Positions 15,687-37,988 of a stretch of DNA of 64,000 nt are shown in pieces (the stretch's first letter is position 1; the number at the start of each line of letters is the position of its first letter). The position numbers and the translations under genes were made by a program. The notes beneath the pieces are model-generated. The model saw nothing but the letters and a program-made list of their open reading frames with translations, had not been told where the DNA came from and made no database searches. The DNA is taken from NCBI GenBank assembly GCA_025456085.1, contig JALOLF010000001.1, positions 1 to 64,000 of the forward strand, in the 5' to 3' direction. This DNA comes from Acidimicrobiales bacterium (lineage in GTDB: Bacteria > Actinomycetota > Acidimicrobiia > Acidimicrobiales > Acidimicrobilacustridaceae).

Positions 15687-17288
15687 TCAGCGTGACGAGA
15701 GCGGGCCGGTGATCTCGGCCCAGACCTGGGCACCGTCGTCCCAGGAACCGACGACGCACTCGGTGGTGCGGGCGCCCGACAGCCAGGCGTCCTCGACGAT
15801 GGTGAGGCTCGCCACCGCCTCGCCCGGCGGGAGCATCCTGCCAGGTCGGTACGTCTCGAGTGCCTCCGCACACTGGGCCCGTGCCGCCGCCCACTGCTCG
15901 TCCGCCGTCGGTGGCCGTCCCCCGCTGTCCTCCAGCGTGGCGTGACCGACGACCTCCTGGAAGTGCGGTCCCCCGCAGTCGACCGGCGCTCGCTGGAACT
16001 CGGGGAACCCGGCGAGCGAGCCCACACAGGTTCCGACGGGGAAGACGAAGGACTGATCCCGATCGCGGACCGCGCCTTCGAAGGGGGCGCCCAGGCGCCC
16101 GGACACCGAGGCGCTCAGTTGGAGCACGCACGTCACCTGGCGGTCACCGACGGCCCACCCTTCCTCCGACGGCCGCAGCAGGGATGCGAAGAACCGGCCG
16201 TGGGGATTGAAGGGGTATCCCAGGTAGCCCTCCAGCTCTGCGATGCACCGCTCGGCGGCGGCGTCGATCGCCACCTCGTCCGGATAGGGCGCGCCGGCGG
16301 GACCGTCCAGGTCGAAGACGGCGTAGATCTCGTCGGTGTGGGGCTCGTCGCAGGGGACGAGTCGGCCCTCCCGAGTCCCTTCCTCGTCGTCGTCCCACCG
16401 CGCACAGTCACCCGCTCGGTAGGGCAGGCGCTCGACCGGCTGGAACGCGACGCCGGTCGGAGCCTCGCCGCCGGCGCTCGCCTCCGGGCTGGTGTCGATG
16501 GGCGTCGTCGGTGTCGGGTCGGCATCGGCCGTGTCTCCGGATCCGGTCGCGGTGGCCCCGTCGGCGAGCACCTCGGGATCGTCCTCGCGCGCCACGACGA
16601 ACCAGCCGGCCGCTGCCAGCGCCACGACGACACCCACGGCGAGGAGCGTCCTGGCGTTGAACCGCCGCCTCCTCGCCGCCTTGCGCTCGATCCGCTGGTC
16701 TGCCCGCTGCTGCACCTCCGCGTCGCGCGCCCGCTGGAGCTGCTGCGCGAGTGCACCGCTGTCGGGATCGGCTGCCAGGGCGGCGTCGTAGCGCTGGACC
16801 GCGCGGTCGGCATGACCCGAGGTGAGCTCGATCTCGCCCGCCAGGGCCAGGGCGTCGCTGTTGCCGGGTGCGAGCTGGACCGCCCGCTCCACTGCCGTTC
16901 GGGCGCGGTCGCGCAGGCCCGCCCGCTTGTAGTTGCGTGCCGTCGTCAACCACGCGTCGACGTCGTCCGGGGCGGCGCGTGCCCACTCCTCGGCGACCTC
17001 CCCGGCGGCGAAGTGCTTGCCGCGTGCCTCGAGCAGCTCGGCTCGGTAGCGCAACGCCGGGACACCGGGCGCGAGCGATGCCCACCGGTCGGCAGCGACC
17101 TGGGCCTGGCTCAACTCGCCCGCACCCCGCAGGGCGAGGGCCTGGTAGCGCCAGAAGTCGGGATCGGTCCGCCCCTGCTCACGGTACGGGCCGAGCGCAC
17201 GCAGCGCGTCGCCCCACTGCTGCCGGTCGACGAGCGCTCCGATCTCCCGCAGCGCCTGCCCGAGGTCGAGTCGATCCTGATCCGCCAC
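15687..17288 (-). CDS. TPR protein with transmembrane helix and two septum-formation-like domains
   Basis: About 533 residues from the GTG at 17288 (ATG at 17330 is an alternative). Residues 1-190 are tetratricopeptide-type helical repeats (WGDALRALGPYREQG, ALRGAGELSQAQVAADRWASLAPG, AVERAVQLAPGNSDALALAGEIEL). A basic stretch (RKAARRRRFNAR) precedes one membrane helix (about 218-235). After an acidic Thr/Pro linker come two copies of the pattern GDC/GTC...V(P/D)C..PH..E(I/V), matching the Septum_form domain found in actinobacterial envelope proteins. The N-terminus is therefore cytoplasmic and the paired domains extracytoplasmic. It may couple protein-protein contacts inside to the envelope or septum outside. 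Confidence 0.75.
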   Translation of the reverse strand: MADQDRLDLGQALREIGALVDRQQWGDALRALGPYREQGRTDPDFWRYQALALRGAGELSQAQVAADRWASLAPGVPALRYRAELLEARGKHFAAGEVAEEWARAAPDDVDAWLTTARNYKRAGLRDRARTAVERAVQLAPGNSDALALAGEIELTSGHADRAVQRYDAALAADPDSGALAQQLQRARDAEVQQRADQRIERKAARRRRFNARTLLAVGVVVALAAAGWFVVAREDDPEVLADGATATGSGDTADADPTPTTPIDTSPEASAGGEAPTGVAFQPVERLPYRAGDCARWDDDEEGTREGRLVPCDEPHTDEIYAVFDLDGPAGAPYPDEVAIDAAAERCIAELEGYLGYPFNPHGRFFASLLRPSEEGWAVGDRQVTCVLQLSASVSGRLGAPFEGAVRDRDQSFVFPVGTCVGSLAGFPEFQRAPVDCGGPHFQEVVGHATLEDSGGRPPTADEQWAAARAQCAEALETYRPGRMLPPGEAVASLTIVEDAWLSGARTTECVVGSWDDGAQVWAEITGPLSSR

Positions 17289-17435
17289 GCCCTGACCGCT
17301 TTCCGTCACCTGGTGAGGTTCGTGCCGCATCCCCCGCAGAGGGGGGCGTGCGTCCCTATTCTTGTCGATCCAGCCGAGGTCACGATCGCGGTGGCGTCGA
17401 CCGTCCACGTGACGCCGTGGTAGCGGGCAGCCCGC

Positions 17436-20500: not shown

Positions 20501-21105
20501 GCCCGCATCCACTGGCCCCACAGGCCCTCCCGGAACTCGTTGCGGTCGATCTCCTGGCGGATGTCCGCCGCCAGCTCACCCCCGGCACCCAACTCCAACA
20601 ACACCTCGAAACGGGCCTCCACGACCTCGTCACGCAACTCCTCGGCCCACCGGATGGCGCTCGCCGCTGCCGGCGAGTCGTCGGCCACGTCCGGCAACGG
20701 ACGGCCACGCCACAGGGACAGGGCCTCGTCGAAGGCCGCCACCGCAGCCGGCGCGTCCCCGACCTCACGAGCCGCCAGGCCCCGACGGGCCGCAGCCTCG
20801 AACCGGGCGACATCGACCTCGGACGGCTCGATGCGCAACCGGTAGCCGGACCCGACCGTCTCGATCGCCTCCCGACCCAGCATCTTGCGCAACCGGTGCA
20901 CCAGCCGCTGCAGGTCGGTGTACGCCCCGCGCCCGGCGGACTCGCCCCACACCACCTCCACCAGCGACTCGATCGACACCACCTCGCCGGCGTGCCACGC
21001 CAGCCACGACACCACCGCCCGGTTCTGCCGCGCCGTCACCCCGACCACCGCGCCGTGCTCGTCGGTCACCGACACCGGCCCCAACACCGCCACCCGCACC
21101 ATCAA
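17536..21105 (-). CDS. SARP/BTAD-family transcriptional regulator with AAA ATPase domain (AfsR-like)
   Basis: A 1189-residue multidomain regulator. Residues 1-95 are a winged-helix DNA-binding domain of OmpR/SARP type (VRVAVLGPVSV, ARQNRAVVSWLAWHAGEVVS, LQRLVHRLRKMLG). Residues 100-250 are the bacterial transcriptional activation domain (ALSLWRGRPLPDV, AALEAYDELAGLLAEHLDAEPSPTLQKL). Residues ~285-560 are an AAA/STAND-type ATPase with GFVGRARELDAL, Walker A GEAGIGKT and Walker B LVVLDDLHWAS. The remaining ~600 residues are helical, TPR-like repeats. No C-terminal LuxR helix-turn-helix is visible, so DNA binding relies on the SARP domain. Such proteins switch on adjacent genes in response to signals sensed by the ATPase/repeat part. 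Two ATGs lie in tandem at 21105 and 21102. Direct 11-bp repeats lie just upstream. Confidence 0.9.
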   Translation of the reverse strand: MMVRVAVLGPVSVTDEHGAVVGVTARQNRAVVSWLAWHAGEVVSIESLVEVVWGESAGRGAYTDLQRLVHRLRKMLGREAIETVGSGYRLRIEPSEVDVARFEAAARRGLAAREVGDAPAAVAAFDEALSLWRGRPLPDVADDSPAAASAIRWAEELRDEVVEARFEVLLELGAGGELAADIRQEIDRNEFREGLWGQWMRALYRGGRQAAALEAYDELAGLLAEHLDAEPSPTLQKLVVRLKRQDPDLLPQSTPPADADGPEDLSACSATGWIDLFPPGGFVGRARELDALGEAWSATLQGRRRLVLLCGEAGIGKTRLAARFAYSLLDEGALVLFGRCDDGLGAAYQPWSQALDGYAACVPVGVLRGQVGDRGPLLARVAPGLTDRIGLTGAAGVVEPETEEHRTFDAVRGLLDAIAADVPVLVVLDDLHWASPPTLRLLHHLLRSATSARLAVVGTYRGGDLAAGHPLRVLLPELRRTERLEHLSLGGLSAAETADLVRLEAGHDLDETLAAAARALHHTTGGNPYFAVQTLRYLQDTEVLHRRDGRLTADTALTEIDLPSGVREVMGLRLRHLPDRDRDLLAAAAVLGLTFDTALLARITGGDRHTVLDAIDAGITAGAIVHGDDPAGVEFTHDGYRQVLLDGLGAARRAELHWAAATVLAADAPTALDEIAHHAYHGLLAGDLTWTADVLLRAGQDARRNAAYGAALRHLERAADLARRPTVPPPLRAAVLVERALARYETTRPDEPPELTAACEAAEQAAFDLGDPDLIVRIATLDGLLNPFPHWGYHDQRRIAMVRRALQAVGPDHPGQRARLLAHLAALLLWNDRDDELAGLCDEADQLLDPTIDPRTADRVYSDALLALADPTHHVQARTLLERAERRRLPHSHLNGLLIGGFLDGLHGDVDALNEKADRLATLARQLPANGPTIGAALLAALRAHLTGDGNGLDDWMATLEPIEQRSTAAKDGVDAGRLHLAAYHALWLQHEVLQAADGFEMIARNGPALTRDTLFAGACMFHALSGPDDDNRRATRRFAAHPERWMITGVGWLLGVAPLADAVVRLGVDVDTAPLARRLETVSGLFVANIGMCVGPVDLYLGRLALHRRDHDRARHFLDRARHQCHTRGLDAWEAMVMINQARLAASDHRPDTAQALLGEAEAVGQRLGLPRIAIDAAAARTEHGLDP

Positions 21106-21158
21106 CCCCTCACCCTAGGCACTCACTGCCACGCACGGACACGCATCTATCCCAGCGC

Positions 21159-21191
21159 GTTCGCATCCCGTTCGCATCCCATTCGCCCACC
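21159..21191. promoter_or_regulatory. three 11-bp direct repeats, probable SARP operator
   Basis: GTTCGCATCCC occurs twice in tandem (21159-21169 and 21170-21180), followed by a degenerate third copy ATTCGCCCACC (21181-21191). This gives heptamers TTCGCAT, TTCGCAT and TTCGCCC at an exact 11-bp period. SARP proteins are known to bind direct heptamer repeats with an 11-bp repeat length. The site lies between the SARP gene and the divergent gene pair. Opposite-strand copies GCGAACCA at 21217 and 21239 are 22 bp apart, the same periodicity. Confidence 0.65.
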
Positions 21192-21286
21192 GTGCACACG
21201 CACCCCTGCCACTCCGGCGAACCAGCAGCGACCCGGCCGCGAACCACCGGGTGCACGGTGGCCCCATCGACCCCATGGAGGCGGCC

Positions 21287-21715
21287 ATGAACCAGCACCA
21301 CGACAACCTCGACCCCTACACCACAGAGACGTGCACCACGCCCGCACCGCCGACGGCGACCCCCATCGCTGCTCTCCGACAGCGCCTGGCCGCCCTCGCG
21401 TCGGTTGCCATCATCGCCGGCGCAACCGGCTGGGCCCTCGCCGGCCCACTCCACACCGACCCCGACACCCCCGCGCCGGCCGCCGACACCCAGACGTTCT
21501 CGACCGACCCCTGCGTCGAAGCCGTCGGCATCGCCCACCAGCGCTTCGTGAACCTGCGCGACGCCCAGTCCGCCGTCGCCTCGCTCGAGGTGTCCCTCGC
21601 CGCCGACGGCGCCCTCGTGACACCCATGCTCCAACGCCACGACGATCTCATCGCCGACGACGCCACCCTCGGCGCCGACTGGGACGCCGCCCGCGACCGA
21701 TGCCTCGCCCAGTGA
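21287..21715 (+). CDS. small membrane-anchored secreted protein, unknown
   Basis: A 142-residue protein from the ATG at 21287, which has a GGAGG motif 5' of it. A polar Thr/Pro-rich N-terminus is followed by one membrane helix (about residues 33-54), then an extracytoplasmic helical domain with two cysteines (DPCVEAVG and DRCLAQ) that may pair. An in-frame ATG at 21251 would add 12 residues. Its end overlaps the SGNH hydrolase start by 16 bp, so the two are coupled and probably controlled by the divergent SARP regulator. Confidence 0.6.
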   Translation: MNQHHDNLDPYTTETCTTPAPPTATPIAALRQRLAALASVAIIAGATGWALAGPLHTDPDTPAPAADTQTFSTDPCVEAVGIAHQRFVNLRDAQSAVASLEVSLAADGALVTPMLQRHDDLIADDATLGADWDAARDRCLAQ

Positions 21716-22464
21716 CCGGCACATCACGGCCGCGCCCTCGCCGAGCTCGCGCGCTGCCCGTAGTCGGCTGGCTGACAGCCCTGTCGACGCTGACCGGCGG
21801 GGCGTACACCATCGCAACCTGGCAGGCCGGCCCGCCAGGCGCAGCCGACGCCATGCCGACGCTCCGAACCACCGGGCTGCCGGCACCGGTGCCCGCGCCA
21901 CGGTTGCGGGTGCAGGTGATCGGCGACTCGCTGGTGTACGGGACCTACAACGAGCTGTTGGATCGGCTGTCGGACCACGACACGACCGTGCGTGCTCTGC
22001 CCGGACGGCCGCTTCGTGACCCGTGGATCCGAGAACAGATCGCCGCCGCGGTGGGCAGCGACATCGTCGTGATCGCCACCGCCTCCAACGACAACCTCGC
22101 CTACGGACCGGCCGGCGACTGGCCCGGCTACCAGGCGCTCCTCGGCCAGGTCACGGCCCAGCTGGACGGGTCGTGCACGGTGTGGGTCGACGTCCGCGAC
22201 CGGGTGGATGAGCGGTACTCGCCGGCAACCGCGGCGACCACCAACCAGGTGCTGCGCGCCACCGTCGAACCAGCCGGCGCGGTGGTGGTCGCCTGGTCCG
22301 ACATCAGCCGCCCACACGACTCCAGCGACTGGTTCGCCACCGACGAGCTCCACTTCGAGGATGACACCGGCCGGCACCAAGCCGGCGCCGCCGCCTACGC
22401 CGCCGCCATCACCGACGGCGTCCACACCTGCGCCCAACGGCGTAGCCCTCTACCCGTGCACTGA
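21700..22464 (+). CDS. SGNH/GDSL-family hydrolase-like secreted protein
   Basis: A 254-residue protein. A basic N-terminus and one hydrophobic segment (about residues 18-36) anchor or export it. Block I is VIGDSLVYG with the nucleophile Ser at about residue 76. Block III is ATASNDN (an Asn-Asp pair in a GxND-like position), and block V is DELHF (Asp-x-x-His). These are the catalytic elements of SGNH esterases and acyltransferases, so a deacylase acting on an envelope glycan or lipid is plausible. The ATG at 21700 overlaps the preceding gene; the enormous in-frame extension upstream lies antisense to the regulator and is not coding. Confidence 0.72.
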   Translation: MPRPVTGTSRPRPRRARALPVVGWLTALSTLTGGAYTIATWQAGPPGAADAMPTLRTTGLPAPVPAPRLRVQVIGDSLVYGTYNELLDRLSDHDTTVRALPGRPLRDPWIREQIAAAVGSDIVVIATASNDNLAYGPAGDWPGYQALLGQVTAQLDGSCTVWVDVRDRVDERYSPATAATTNQVLRATVEPAGAVVVAWSDISRPHDSSDWFATDELHFEDDTGRHQAGAAAYAAAITDGVHTCAQRRSPLPVH

Positions 22465-22630: not shown

Positions 22631-24649
22631 CTACGCGCCGCGCGCCATGTTGGCGAACTTCGTGTAGTGGTCCAGGAAAGCCAGCCGCACCACGCCGGTG
22701 GGGCCGTTGCGCTGCTTGGCGACGATGATCTCGGCCGTGCCGCGGTCGGGGGACTCGCTGTTGTAGATCTCGTCGCGGTAGATGAACATGACGATGTCGG
22801 CGTCCTGTTCGATCGAGTTGTGCACGACGATGCCCTCGGCCACGAAGTTGTGCGTGCCGGGCACGGTGGCGTCGAACACCGGCTCCTCGCCGAGCTCCTC
22901 GATGCCGACGATCGTGTCCCACGCCACGTCGGCGGTGGCCAGGTCGGCCAGCACGCGATCGGGCACCACCTCGGCGATGCGGGCCAACGTGGCGCGACTC
23001 AGGGGCTCGCCGTACACCTCGTCGACGAAGGCCTGCCCGCCGAACCGCTCGGCCAGCGACCGCTCGTCGAGGCCGTGCTGGGGCAGGACCTTGCGAACGT
23101 AGGTCCACAGCTCCCGGGGCACCCGCTCGTCGAGCGTGGGCCCGTCGACACCGACGCTGGAGGGCCAGCGGCCCGCCACGGGCACCGCGATGCGGTCCCC
23201 GACGTCGAGGTCCTCGAGGGGGAACCAGCCCTCGAGGGCCAGGAAGGGGTGGTTGGCGCTCGCCTTGATGCGCCGGCCCGACGCCGTGCGCAGCTCGTAG
23301 ACGGTCTTGGTCCCACTGTGGAAGACACGGCTGACGAGGCCGGGGACGAGCCGGTAGCGCTCGTCGAGGGTCCACACGGGAACATCGGTGGCACGGGCCC
23401 GGTAGAGCTCCCCCATCGACACCTGCTCGCCGGTGTCGGCCCGGGTGAGCAGCGTGTCGGCGGTGAGGCAGCCGGACTCGCGGAGGTCGGCCAGCATGGG
23501 GCGCTTGTCGGCCCGCATCTCGAGCTGGCGGGACAGCTGCGAGAGCGCGATGACCGGGCACTCGAGCTCGCGGGCCAGGATCTTGAGGCCACGGCTGATC
23601 TCGGAGACCTCCACCTGGCGGGACTCGGCCCCCGCCCGGCCGGTCATCAGCTGGAGGTAGTCGACGACCACCAACCCCAGGTCGCCGACGCGGCTCTTGA
23701 GGCGTCGGGCCTTGGAGCGGATCTCCATGATGGTGAGGTTGGGGTTGTCGTCGATCCAGATGGGTGCGTCGGCCAGGCGGCCGGTGGCGTGGGCGATGCG
23801 GGCCCAGTCGCTCTCGTTCAGGTTGCCGTTGCGGATGCGCTTGGAGTCGACCCGGGCCTCGGAGCACAACATGCGCTGGGTGAGCTCGAGCTGGCCCATC
23901 TCGAGCGAGAACAGCAGCACCGGACGTTGCAGCTCGAGCGCGGCGTGGGTGCCGATGCCCAGCGCGAAGGCGGTCTTGCCGGCGCTGGGCCGGGCACCGA
24001 CCACGATCAGCGCCTGGGGCTGCAGGCCCGAGGTGAGCTCGTCGAGATCGAGATAGCCGGTCGGCACACCGGTGATGGACTGGCCCCGCTCGTAGAGCTG
24101 TTCGAGCCGGTCGAGGTTGGCGTCGAGCAGGTCGTGGATGGGAGCCATGGTGTCGGTGACCCGGCGCTGGGCCACGTCGAACACCAGCGACTCGGCGCGG
24201 TCGACCGCCTTGGTGACGTCCTCCGGGAGCTCGTAGCTCATCTCCGCGATCTCGCCCGCGACGCCGATCAGTCGCCGGAGCAGCGCGTGCTCCTCGATGA
24301 TGCGGGCGTAGCGCTGGGCGGAGGAGGTGGCCGGGGTGCCGGCCTGCAGGGTCACCAGCGTGGCCGGACCGCCGATGGCGTCGAGCAGACCGGCACGGCG
24401 GAGCTCCTCCGCGACCGTGACCGGGTCGGCCGGCTCGCCGGCGGAGCTGAGCGACGTGATGGCGTCGAAGATGTGGCTGTGGGCGGGCTTGTAGAAGTCG
24501 TCGGCCGTCACGACCTCGGACGCGACGGCGATGGCGTCCTTCGACAGGAGCATCGCGCCGAGCAGCGACTCCTCGGCCTGGAGGTTGTGCGGCGGGACGC
24601 GACCCGGGGAGGCGGATCGGGGACGGGGGGCATCTTCGGCGACGCTCAC
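22631..24649 (-). CDS. dnaB: replicative DNA helicase DnaB with in-frame intein
   Basis: The 672-codon precursor comprises an N-extein (residues 1-393), an intein (394-611) and a C-extein (612-672); the spliced product would be about 454 residues, the normal DnaB length. DnaB unwinds DNA at the fork. The N-terminal domain begins PPHNLQAEESLLGAML, Walker A is GARPSAGKT, Walker B is LVVVDYLQLM, and the intein interrupts RESG/SIEQDAD, a known DnaB intein site in the ATPase/RecA fold. The GTG at 24649 has GGAGG upstream and is preferred to the ATG at 24691. The gene is the last of the rpsF-ssb-rpsR-rplI-dnaB cluster. Confidence 0.93.
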   Translation of the reverse strand: MSVAEDAPRPRSASPGRVPPHNLQAEESLLGAMLLSKDAIAVASEVVTADDFYKPAHSHIFDAITSLSSAGEPADPVTVAEELRRAGLLDAIGGPATLVTLQAGTPATSSAQRYARIIEEHALLRRLIGVAGEIAEMSYELPEDVTKAVDRAESLVFDVAQRRVTDTMAPIHDLLDANLDRLEQLYERGQSITGVPTGYLDLDELTSGLQPQALIVVGARPSAGKTAFALGIGTHAALELQRPVLLFSLEMGQLELTQRMLCSEARVDSKRIRNGNLNESDWARIAHATGRLADAPIWIDDNPNLTIMEIRSKARRLKSRVGDLGLVVVDYLQLMTGRAGAESRQVEVSEISRGLKILARELECPVIALSQLSRQLEMRADKRPMLADLRESGCLTADTLLTRADTGEQVSMGELYRARATDVPVWTLDERYRLVPGLVSRVFHSGTKTVYELRTASGRRIKASANHPFLALEGWFPLEDLDVGDRIAVPVAGRWPSSVGVDGPTLDERVPRELWTYVRKVLPQHGLDERSLAERFGGQAFVDEVYGEPLSRATLARIAEVVPDRVLADLATADVAWDTIVGIEELGEEPVFDATVPGTHNFVAEGIVVHNSIEQDADIVMFIYRDEIYNSESPDRGTAEIIVAKQRNGPTGVVRLAFLDHYTKFANMARGA
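22817..23470 (-). other. DnaB mini-intein (218 residues)
   Basis: The protein insert begins with Cys1 (block A CLTADTLL) and ends with VVHN followed by Ser+1. Block B is KASANHPF (the usual TxxH core reads ASANH), block F is VFDATVPGTHNF and block G is EGIVVHN/S. All residues for protein splicing are present, so it is probably active. No LAGLIDADG motif is found: the region between blocks B and F is a ~100-residue mostly helical linker (PRELWTYVRKVLPQ, LSRATLARIAEVV), which looks like a decayed or reduced endonuclease segment. The junction codons were read directly: TGC at 23468-23470 and AAC at 22817-22819 (minus strand). Confidence 0.9.
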
Positions 24650-24993
24650 GGGAGAGCCTCCGCTGACACGACCGGCAGGTGAGCGACACACATGGCCCGA
24701 TCACTCTGACCGACCGACCCTGGGGATTCATAGACGCGTAACCCGGGAAATTCGGGGGATAACCACCCGGGGATGGTGGACCGCTCTGGGGACATGCTGG
24801 GGACAGACCGCGGGGTCCTGTGGATGAGGGTCCTGTGGATGAGGGCGGGCGCGGTGTTCGGCTCCACGTCACGAGCGTACGCGGGGGGTGTGTCAGGCAC
24901 GCGGCAGCATCTGGCGTCCACGCGACGATGCCGGACCCGAAGGCCCGGCATCGTCGGTGTCGGAGCTGGCGGCCGCGAGCACGGCCTCGGCGG
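24650..24993. other. dnaB-rplI intergenic region with tandem DnaA-box-like repeats
   Basis: A 344-bp gap with no convincing gene. The 15-bp unit GGGTCCTGTGGATGA is repeated in tandem at 24813-24827 and 24828-24842. Each copy contains TGTGGATGA, one mismatch from a DnaA box (TGTGGATAA). The region also holds the dnaB ribosome-binding site (GGAGG about 8 bp before 24649). It probably contains a dnaB promoter separate from the ribosomal-protein operon. Confidence 0.5.
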
Positions 24994-35840: not shown

Positions 35841-37988
35841 ATGGCGCCCATGCCGACGACGCGCCGGGTCCTGCTGCGCCTCGTCGCCTCGACCGTGTTG
35901 TGCTGGGCGGCCGTGGTGGCCACCGGTGCCGGCGCCGACACGGCGAGCCTGCCGACCGGCGACCCGTCCGCGCGTCGGACCCAGGCCGAGTCGTCGCTGA
36001 CGCTGCTCGGGCAGACCCCCGTGGTCGCCCCGAGCGACGAGTGGCAGGTGGACCTGGGCCTGGCGGGCACCTCCGGCGCGGAGTCCCTGGCGTTCACCCT
36101 GTACGAGCCCATCGTCTCGGGCCGTGACGGCCTGGACGACACCATCTCCGGAGCGCGGCTCGGCCGCCGCCTGCGCGCCCCGCTGAGCGTTCCCGTGGCG
36201 AACCTGCCCGTGGTGGGCGGCGCCGTGCAGGCACGGTTCCAGATCGTCAGCGAGGGCGACAACCCGCTCGTCGGGTTCCGCCTGTCGACCCCGGGCGTGT
36301 ACCCGGTGGCGATCGACCTGCTGTCGGCGGACGGGACCACGCTGGACACCCTCGTGACCCACATCATCCGCCTGCCGGCGCCGCAGGATCCCGATGCCGA
36401 GCGGCTCGTGGCGCTGGGCGTGGCCACGGTGATCCCCCTGCGGGCGCCGCTGGCCACCGGGACCGACGGCGGCCGGACCGTCGACGAGGCCGCCCGCGCC
36501 TGGCTGGCCGAGGTCGTCGACGCCATCGAGGCGCACCCCGAGGTCGCGTCGAGCATCGCCCCCTCACCCGAGACCGTCGACGTGTTGGCCAACGGCGACG
36601 CCGGACCCGACCCGCTCGTCGACACGCTGCGCACCGCGCTGGGCGACCGACAGGTCGTGTCGAGCACGTACGTCCCGCTCGACGTCGGCGCTTACGTGGA
36701 GGTGGGTCTCACCCAGGAGCTCGCCGACCAGCGGGCGGCCGGCCGCGCCGTGCTGGACCTCGAGCTCGTCGGCGAGCGGCCCCTCGACGACCGGACCTGG
36801 ATCGCCGACGGGTCGTTGACGGGCCCGGCACTCGACGTGCTGCGCGCCGACGGCATCGACCGGGTCGTCTTCGCCGAACGGGACCTCGACCCACTGGCCG
36901 ACGGGCAGACCCTGACCCGACCCTTCGACGTCGTCTCGGCGGCAGGCACGGCGGTACCGGCTGCGGCGGCCGACGCCCGGCTCTCCGATCGTCTCACGGC
37001 GACCGACGATCCGATCCTGAACGCCCACCTCGCGCTGGCCGACCTCACCCTCATCCAGGAGGAGCGCCCCGACGAGCAGGGCGTCGTGGTGCTGGCGGTT
37101 CCTCTGGGCAGCACCCCTCCCGCCACCGTCGACGAGCTCCTCTCCGGACTGGGGGAGGCCGGTCGCGACCGGGACGGGGCCGAGACGACGCTGGCCGCCT
37201 GGACGCTCGACGACGCCTTCGCCGTGCCCCCCGCCACCGCGCCCGCCACGACCACCGGCGCCGTGCCGCTGGTGCGCACCTGGGTTCCCGTCGCCGGCAC
37301 CGGGCTGGGCACCTACCCGGCGAGCCTCGACGCCGCCCAGATCTCCGTCGACGGCTTCGACTCGATGGTCGCGGCCACGGCCCCGGAGCTGGTCCTGCCC
37401 CTGCGGCGTCTGCTGTTGGTCTCGGGGGCCGCGGGCCTCGAACCCGACGTCCGCCAGGACTACCTCGACGCCGCCACCGCGACGGTCAACGACCAGGTGG
37501 CCGGCATCCGGGCGCCCGAGCAGCCCGTCGTCAACCTGACAGCGCGCGAGGCGACCGTCCCGGTCGAGCTCGTCAACGAGCTGGACTACCCCGTCGAGGT
37601 GCGGGTGGTCTTCGCCAGCGAGAAGCTGGAGTTCCCGGACGGGGAGATCGTGCTGGCCCGGCTCGAACCCGGCTCGAACCGGCTCGAGGTGCGGGTACAG
37701 GCACGGGCCTCGGGCACCTTCCCCGTCGAGATCCGCCTGTTCTCTCCCGACAGCGGCATCGCGCTGCCCCGGACGGAGGTGACGGTGCGGTCGACCGCGG
37801 TGTCGGGTCTGGGCCTGGTGCTGTCGATCGGCGCCGGGGTGTTCCTGCTCATCTGGTGGGGCCGACACCTGCACCGCACACGCCAGAACCGTCGCCTCGT
37901 CCCACAGCAGGCCACGGGCGAGGTCGACGCCGATGCCGATGCCGACAGGCCGTCGGCGCCGACCTCGGGACCCTCCCCCGTCCCATGA
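35841..37988 (+). CDS. DUF6049 family membrane-anchored extracytoplasmic protein
   Basis: 715 residues. A signal peptide (about residues 8-35) leads to a long extracytoplasmic region with beta-rich domains, a polysaccharide-deacetylase-like central part (LDVLRADGIDRVVFAERDLDP), an Ig-like C-terminal segment (VPVELVNELDYPVEVRVVF) and one membrane helix near residue 655-677 with a short basic cytoplasmic end. It corresponds to mycobacterial Rv3909, immediately upstream of the MurJ/pseudokinase gene. Here MurJ is missing and a DegV gene follows. ATG at 35850 is an alternative start. The biochemical role is not known. Confidence 0.8.
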   Translation: MAPMPTTRRVLLRLVASTVLCWAAVVATGAGADTASLPTGDPSARRTQAESSLTLLGQTPVVAPSDEWQVDLGLAGTSGAESLAFTLYEPIVSGRDGLDDTISGARLGRRLRAPLSVPVANLPVVGGAVQARFQIVSEGDNPLVGFRLSTPGVYPVAIDLLSADGTTLDTLVTHIIRLPAPQDPDAERLVALGVATVIPLRAPLATGTDGGRTVDEAARAWLAEVVDAIEAHPEVASSIAPSPETVDVLANGDAGPDPLVDTLRTALGDRQVVSSTYVPLDVGAYVEVGLTQELADQRAAGRAVLDLELVGERPLDDRTWIADGSLTGPALDVLRADGIDRVVFAERDLDPLADGQTLTRPFDVVSAAGTAVPAAAADARLSDRLTATDDPILNAHLALADLTLIQEERPDEQGVVVLAVPLGSTPPATVDELLSGLGEAGRDRDGAETTLAAWTLDDAFAVPPATAPATTTGAVPLVRTWVPVAGTGLGTYPASLDAAQISVDGFDSMVAATAPELVLPLRRLLLVSGAAGLEPDVRQDYLDAATATVNDQVAGIRAPEQPVVNLTAREATVPVELVNELDYPVEVRVVFASEKLEFPDGEIVLARLEPGSNRLEVRVQARASGTFPVEIRLFSPDSGIALPRTEVTVRSTAVSGLGLVLSIGAGVFLLIWWGRHLHRTRQNRRLVPQQATGEVDADADADRPSAPTSGPSPVP

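Follow-up and report, generated by a model that had tools for sequence, protein, structure and literature searches.

SARPs are best known as activators of antibiotic gene clusters in Streptomyces. Among the systems described in detail, AfsR of Streptomyces coelicolor is a large SARP in which an N-terminal winged helix and a BTAD domain are followed by an ATPase domain; the ATPase and the C-terminal parts inhibit the protein, and ATP relieves this inhibition (PMC10936776). The afs box at afsS comprises two direct repeats of the CGTT(T/C)ATCG type with 11-bp periodicity, which overlap the -35 element of a separate target gene and are followed by the suboptimal -10 element CACTGT, and as a rule the 3' repeat of a SARP promoter is located 8 bp from the -10 element (PMC10936776). 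For PimR at the pimM operator, PnR2, PolR and SanG, a SARP combined with a large ATPase is likewise associated with a main operator in which three heptamers, separated by 4-bp spacers, precede a neighbouring gene, and the genes for PnR2 and ChxA are oriented divergently from those with the repeats in their promoter regions. A divergent SARP-LAL operator of such layout is documented in the case of PimR; for PnR2, one has been inferred (PMC5930380). The PimR operator combines a single triplet with a 10-bp doublet, the heptamer being CGGCAAG, and its target gene encodes the pathway regulator of an antibiotic cluster. EmbR of Mycobacterium tuberculosis has the same winged helix and BTAD core and ends in an FHA domain.

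Here, a stretch of 64,000 nucleotides from a genome of the order Acidimicrobiales (hereafter the window) was analysed, in which the gene of a large SARP is divergent from an operon for a small membrane protein and an SGNH hydrolase. Like the systems above, the regulator combines the winged helix and BTAD core with an ATPase, which is of the AAA_16 type, unlike in AfsR, and takes the place of the FHA domain of EmbR. The repeats differ from the afs box and from the PimR operator in that they form two inverted triplets next to a divergent operon, in the word, which is GCGAAC(C/G) or GTTCGC on the other strand, and in the presumed target, which is the small membrane protein and SGNH hydrolase instead of a pathway regulator. 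Control of this kind is already known, and the second, inverted triplet of the same word together with a target of non-biosynthetic appearance is a well-supported addition. From the sequence, we estimate a probability of roughly 0.75 that the SARP binds both triplets and thereby controls its own gene as well as the divergent operon. If true, the divergent triplet pair would mean that a SARP acts on a target that belongs to no obvious antibiotic cluster. Among the papers searched, none dealt with SARPs in Acidimicrobiia, which carries little weight.

The SARP gene and the divergent operon

The product of the leftward gene (Table 1) was confirmed as an AfsR-like large SARP, in agreement with the neighbour named in an earlier reading made from the sequence alone (the sequence-only reading). 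Pfam matches were obtained for Trans_reg_C (8.1e-7), BTAD (E 2.6e-31) and AAA_16 (1.4e-25), AfsR structures match residues 3-326, and the EmbR structure 2fez matches the N-terminus (E 7.6e-22). The order of domains is that of a large SARP, i.e. an OmpR-type winged helix followed by BTAD and an added ATPase (NOD/LAL) domain, the latter with the Walker motif GEAGIGKT. Where AfsR has the base-contacting R92, this SARP has an aligned Arg, and 24 of 38 relatives have Arg or Lys. No TPR family was found above the Pfam threshold in the C-terminal part, whose length and family suggest a TPR-like region. Like the NOD and TPR domains in AfsR, the ATPase and C-terminal parts might gate the activity of the SARP on some signal.

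The genome contains paralogues of the SARP elsewhere. Neither genome_contigs, searched by protein and by exact repeat DNA, nor 40 relatives and 394 other class genomes yielded a close orthologue; among the relatives and class genomes, the best match reached about 43% identity over the DNA-binding part. These searches gave no orthologous intergenic region for phylogenetic footprinting. Downstream of the SARP gene, a gene for a Septum_form and TPR protein is possibly part of the same transcription unit.

The reading frames of the small protein and of the SGNH hydrolase both show a GC bias across codon positions that supports them as genes, and the start codon of the hydrolase (ATG 21700) overlaps the 3' end of the small-protein gene. 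The small protein matched no Pfam or NCBIfam family and gave chance-level matches only in the 394 other class genomes; for the hydrolase, a direct sequence search of the same genomes found no homologue at 1e-5. The sequence-only reading had seen a sensing-effector module in this gene set, which was a guess: neither operon protein has a detectable homologue in the 394 class genomes, and therefore nothing shows a conserved module. No biosynthetic cluster was present among the immediate neighbours examined. Further along the window, a replicative helicase DnaB with an intein is encoded.

Table 1. Coordinates of the genes, repeats and candidate promoter elements at the locus (positions in the window)
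Feature	Position	Strand	Description
Septum_form + TPR protein	15687-17408	-	downstream of SARP gene
Large SARP regulator, 1188 aa	17539..21102	-	Trans_reg_C + BTAD, AAA_16 ATPase, long C-terminal part; start ATG 21102, possible leaderless start TTG 21105; coding GC bias 0.80/0.50/0.91
Candidate -10 TAGGGT of SARP gene	21112..21117	-	ends 6 nt before TTG 21105, 9 nt before ATG 21102
TG(C/A)GTG, three copies	21120-21147	-	TGCGTG TCCG TGCGTG GCAG TGAGTG; 10-bp spacing
Putative alternative, weaker -10 TAGATG of SARP gene	21144..21149	-	8 bp past last GCGAACG of array A
Array A	21159-21191	+	GTTCGCATCCC GTTCGCATCCC ATTCGCCCACC; hexamers GTTCGC/GTTCGC/ATTCGC, 11-bp spacing
14-bp inverted repeat	21187-21200 (CCACCGTGCACACG), 21248-21261 (CGGGTGCACGGTGG)	left arm +	93%; array B between arms
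Array B	21217-21245	+	GCGAACCAGCA GCGACCCGGCC GCGAACC; hexamers GCGAAC/GCGACC/GCGAAC, 11-bp spacing
Putative suboptimal -10 CACGGT of divergent operon	21254..21259	+	8 bp past last GCGAACC of array B
Ribosome-binding site GGAGG	21277..21281	+	before ATG 21287
Small protein, 142 aa	21287..21715	+	one apparent membrane span by eye; GC bias 0.73/0.55/0.91
SGNH/GDSL hydrolase (Lipase_GDSL_2)	21700..22464	+	GDS and DxxH motifs present
Replicative helicase DnaB with intein	22631-24691	-	N- and C-terminal splicing regions matched

Two mutually inverted triplets in one intergenic region

Between the leftward SARP gene and the rightward two-gene operon (about 21103-21286), one hexamer occurs in two triplets, which have exact 11-bp spacing and are inverted relative to each other. 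In array A, GTTCGCATCCC at 21159-21169 is followed by an exact second copy at 21170-21180 and by ATTCGCCCACC at 21181, just as the exact repeat with a third partial copy had been described before; read toward the SARP gene, the array is GCGAAT..GCGAAC..GCGAAC with GCGAACG as last heptamer. The inverse copies GCGAACCA at 21217 and 21239, previously taken as a pair 22 bp apart, are present as described, but the GCGACC at 21228 midway between them, 11 bp from each, had been overlooked, so that array B is a triplet as well. Its heptamers GCGAACC, GCGACCC and GCGAACC point toward the SGNH operon, i.e. opposite to array A. A SARP operator is characterised by at least two heptameric direct repeats with 11-bp or 22-bp spacing, and the region holds two triplets spaced by 11 bp; the likeness to SARP boxes drawn by the sequence-only reading rests on the same period (PMC10936776, PMC5930380).

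Genome-wide counts were obtained by pattern searches over the 4.85-Mb genome. The pattern TTCGCAT-N4-TTCGCAT, which the sequence-only reading had put forward for a genome scan, has exactly one match in 4.85 Mb, at array A. With up to one mismatch, GTTCGC-N5-GTTCGC occurs 52 times in the genome, four of these matches being located in the intergenic region, and the triplet pattern GCGAAC-N5-GCGAAC-N5-GCGAAC (searched to 3 mismatches) is found with at most one mismatch only at arrays A and B, while the reversed control triplet pattern has seven matches in all at up to three mismatches. The next-best triplet of the genome, C108 with 2 mismatches, overlaps with open reading frames and was disregarded as a possible target.

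Within the window, array A is the only exact threefold 5-mer at period 11. Single pairs of 8-mers at 11-bp spacing are found at about eight places in the 64 kb, as might be expected if such repeats arose by chance or from low complexity in GC-rich DNA. As an explanation of the two arrays, this can practically be dismissed: two triplets of one hexamer share one intergenic region, the genome holds only two such triplets, and in dinucleotide shuffles of the region two triplets appeared in 0/3000 cases and one as good in 22/3000. A second 11-bp repeat at 37657 (CGGCTCGAACC) is located within a coding region and was dropped. The 14-bp inverted repeat whose arms bracket array B might be recognised by another factor or have no special role, given that its core CACCGTGCAC occurs about 70 times in the genome.

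Repeats with 11-bp periodicity upstream of SARP genes of the class

For the class-wide analysis, 114 distinct SARP upstream regions including the one of the window were collected from SARP-domain matches (loci L006-L171) and searched for two 8-mers at a given spacing with at least 7 identities. Repeats at period 11 were found in 46 of the 114 regions (40%), whereas each of the other periods from 8 to 15 was found in 5-19 of them, and triplets in which 5 or more of the 7 columns are identical were present in 21 regions at period 11 and in 1-4 at other periods. The signature is shared by part of the SARPs, and the remaining 60% or so show no clear array. As controls, 162 regions upstream of other genes were taken from 20 segments of the same class; here period 11 showed no enrichment (13/162, 8%; Fisher p 1.8e-10 against the SARP regions). 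Gene calls for these controls were crude (long ORFs by GC bias), and therefore the comparison between periods within the SARP set is the stronger control. Equal frequency of such repeats at unrelated intergenic regions, which the sequence-only reading had named as contrary to it, was thus not observed in the class.

OmpR-type response regulators can also use 11-bp direct repeats, and the arrays might be bound by such a regulator or by another one different from the adjacent SARP. PhoP overlaps the AfsR box at afsS (PMC10972967), so that repeats of this kind are not confined to SARPs, and the SARP paralogues in the genome offer further candidates. Set against the enrichment of the 11-bp signature upstream of SARP genes compared with other genes of the class, and given that near-perfect triplets adjoin this SARP only while a global regulator would have more sites, binding by a different regulator appears very unlikely.

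A TANNNT hexamer ends 6 nt before the start codon in 33 of the 114 SARP genes and 7 nt before it in 9 more; over distances of 6-10 nt, about half of the genes have it, and their mRNAs are apparently leaderless. When upstream regions were anchored at the -10 element, the period-11 signal stood above neighbouring periods between about -80 and -44; array A extends from -42 to -74. The median distance from array centre to start codon is 68 bp for the 21 best arrays of the class (window excluded, 300 bp searched).

The heptamer words vary by gene (GGCTGTG, CTCGCGG, GGTCACT, CGGTTAG, CGGCTGA and others), as one would predict for regulators that each recognise a word of their own. A unit motif derived from 49 class arrays has the weak consensus C-G-(G/C)-C-T-G-A on the coding strand, with an information content that barely exceeds that of randomly reversed units, and it scores arrays A and B similarly or in conflict in the two orientations. 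Tentatively, and with odds that we consider slightly short of even, many SARPs of the class might carry a private 11-bp array at their own, often leaderless, promoter, so that genomes would pair dozens of them with operator words from which a recognition code could be read; at the locus in the window, the word would have been duplicated in inverted orientation, coupling the SARP to an orphan operon for a membrane protein and an SGNH hydrolase. The class-wide signature is more generally useful than the single locus. It yields many regulator-operator pairs from sequence alone and makes the recognition code and the generality of autoregulation testable.

Assignment of the arrays to the two genes

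The centre of array A is located 71 bp from the ATG of the SARP gene and the centre of array B 56 bp from the ATG of the operon. Each of the divergent genes is accompanied by a triplet of its own at a typical distance, which is most naturally read as control of both, and to this extent the regulation of self and operon claimed earlier holds up, while binding is what we infer. The intergenic region would then be a divergent pair of SARP-controlled promoters, with targets composed of two inverted triplets of one heptamer, GCGAAC(C/G) or equivalently GTTCGC. The AfsR-like SARP would presumably bind as side-by-side protomers, one per 11-bp turn; array A, beside the SARP gene, would serve autoregulation, and array B would recruit RNA polymerase to the operon of the small membrane protein and the SGNH hydrolase.

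A scan for canonical sigma-70 promoters found none. With TAGGGT as its candidate -10 element, the SARP gene apparently belongs to the leaderless half of those in the class. For the SGNH operon no canonical TANNNT -10 element was found, and its promoter may instead contain the suboptimal -10 CACGGT 8 bp downstream of the last heptamer of array B, which would fit the 8-bp rule and resembles the CACTGT of afsS. The 8-bp gaps to CACGGT on the operon side and to TAGATG on the SARP side presuppose the GCGAAC reading direction, and neither hexamer matches the canonical -10 element.

That the operon has no clear TANNNT hexamer and no conserved association with SARPs, and that the class-wide evidence covers the upstream regions of SARP genes themselves, would also be consistent with the SARP gene as sole target, both triplets forming one autoregulatory operator with array B as its distal part and the SGNH operon being independent. 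We regard this as rather unlikely, since only 56 bp separate array B from the operon start, compared with 129 bp to the SARP start, a distance reached by just two of the 21 best class arrays, and the last heptamer of array B lies 8 bp from CACGGT on the operon side.

The gene distances favour an orientation in which GCGAAC points at each gene, and a reading after the TTCA of AfsR would cross the assignment. In AfsR boxes, TTCA is found on the non-template strand, and the upstream repeat includes the -35 element TTCAGC (PMC10936776); array B fits the class unit motif better as GTTCGC than as GCGAAC. If GTTCGC were the productive direction, array A would drive the SGNH operon and array B the SARP gene from overlapping promoters. 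Such a crossed arrangement is distinctly unlikely: the arrays would be 114 and 129 bp from their genes compared with the class median of 68 bp, no -10-like hexamer is present 6-9 bp downstream of either array in the GTTCGC direction, and the class motif slightly favours the opposite direction for array A.

Just upstream of the candidate -10 element of the SARP gene, three TG(C/A)GTG hexamers are arranged at 10-bp spacing (Table 1). This set recalls the 10-bp secondary operator of PimR and may have arisen by chance.
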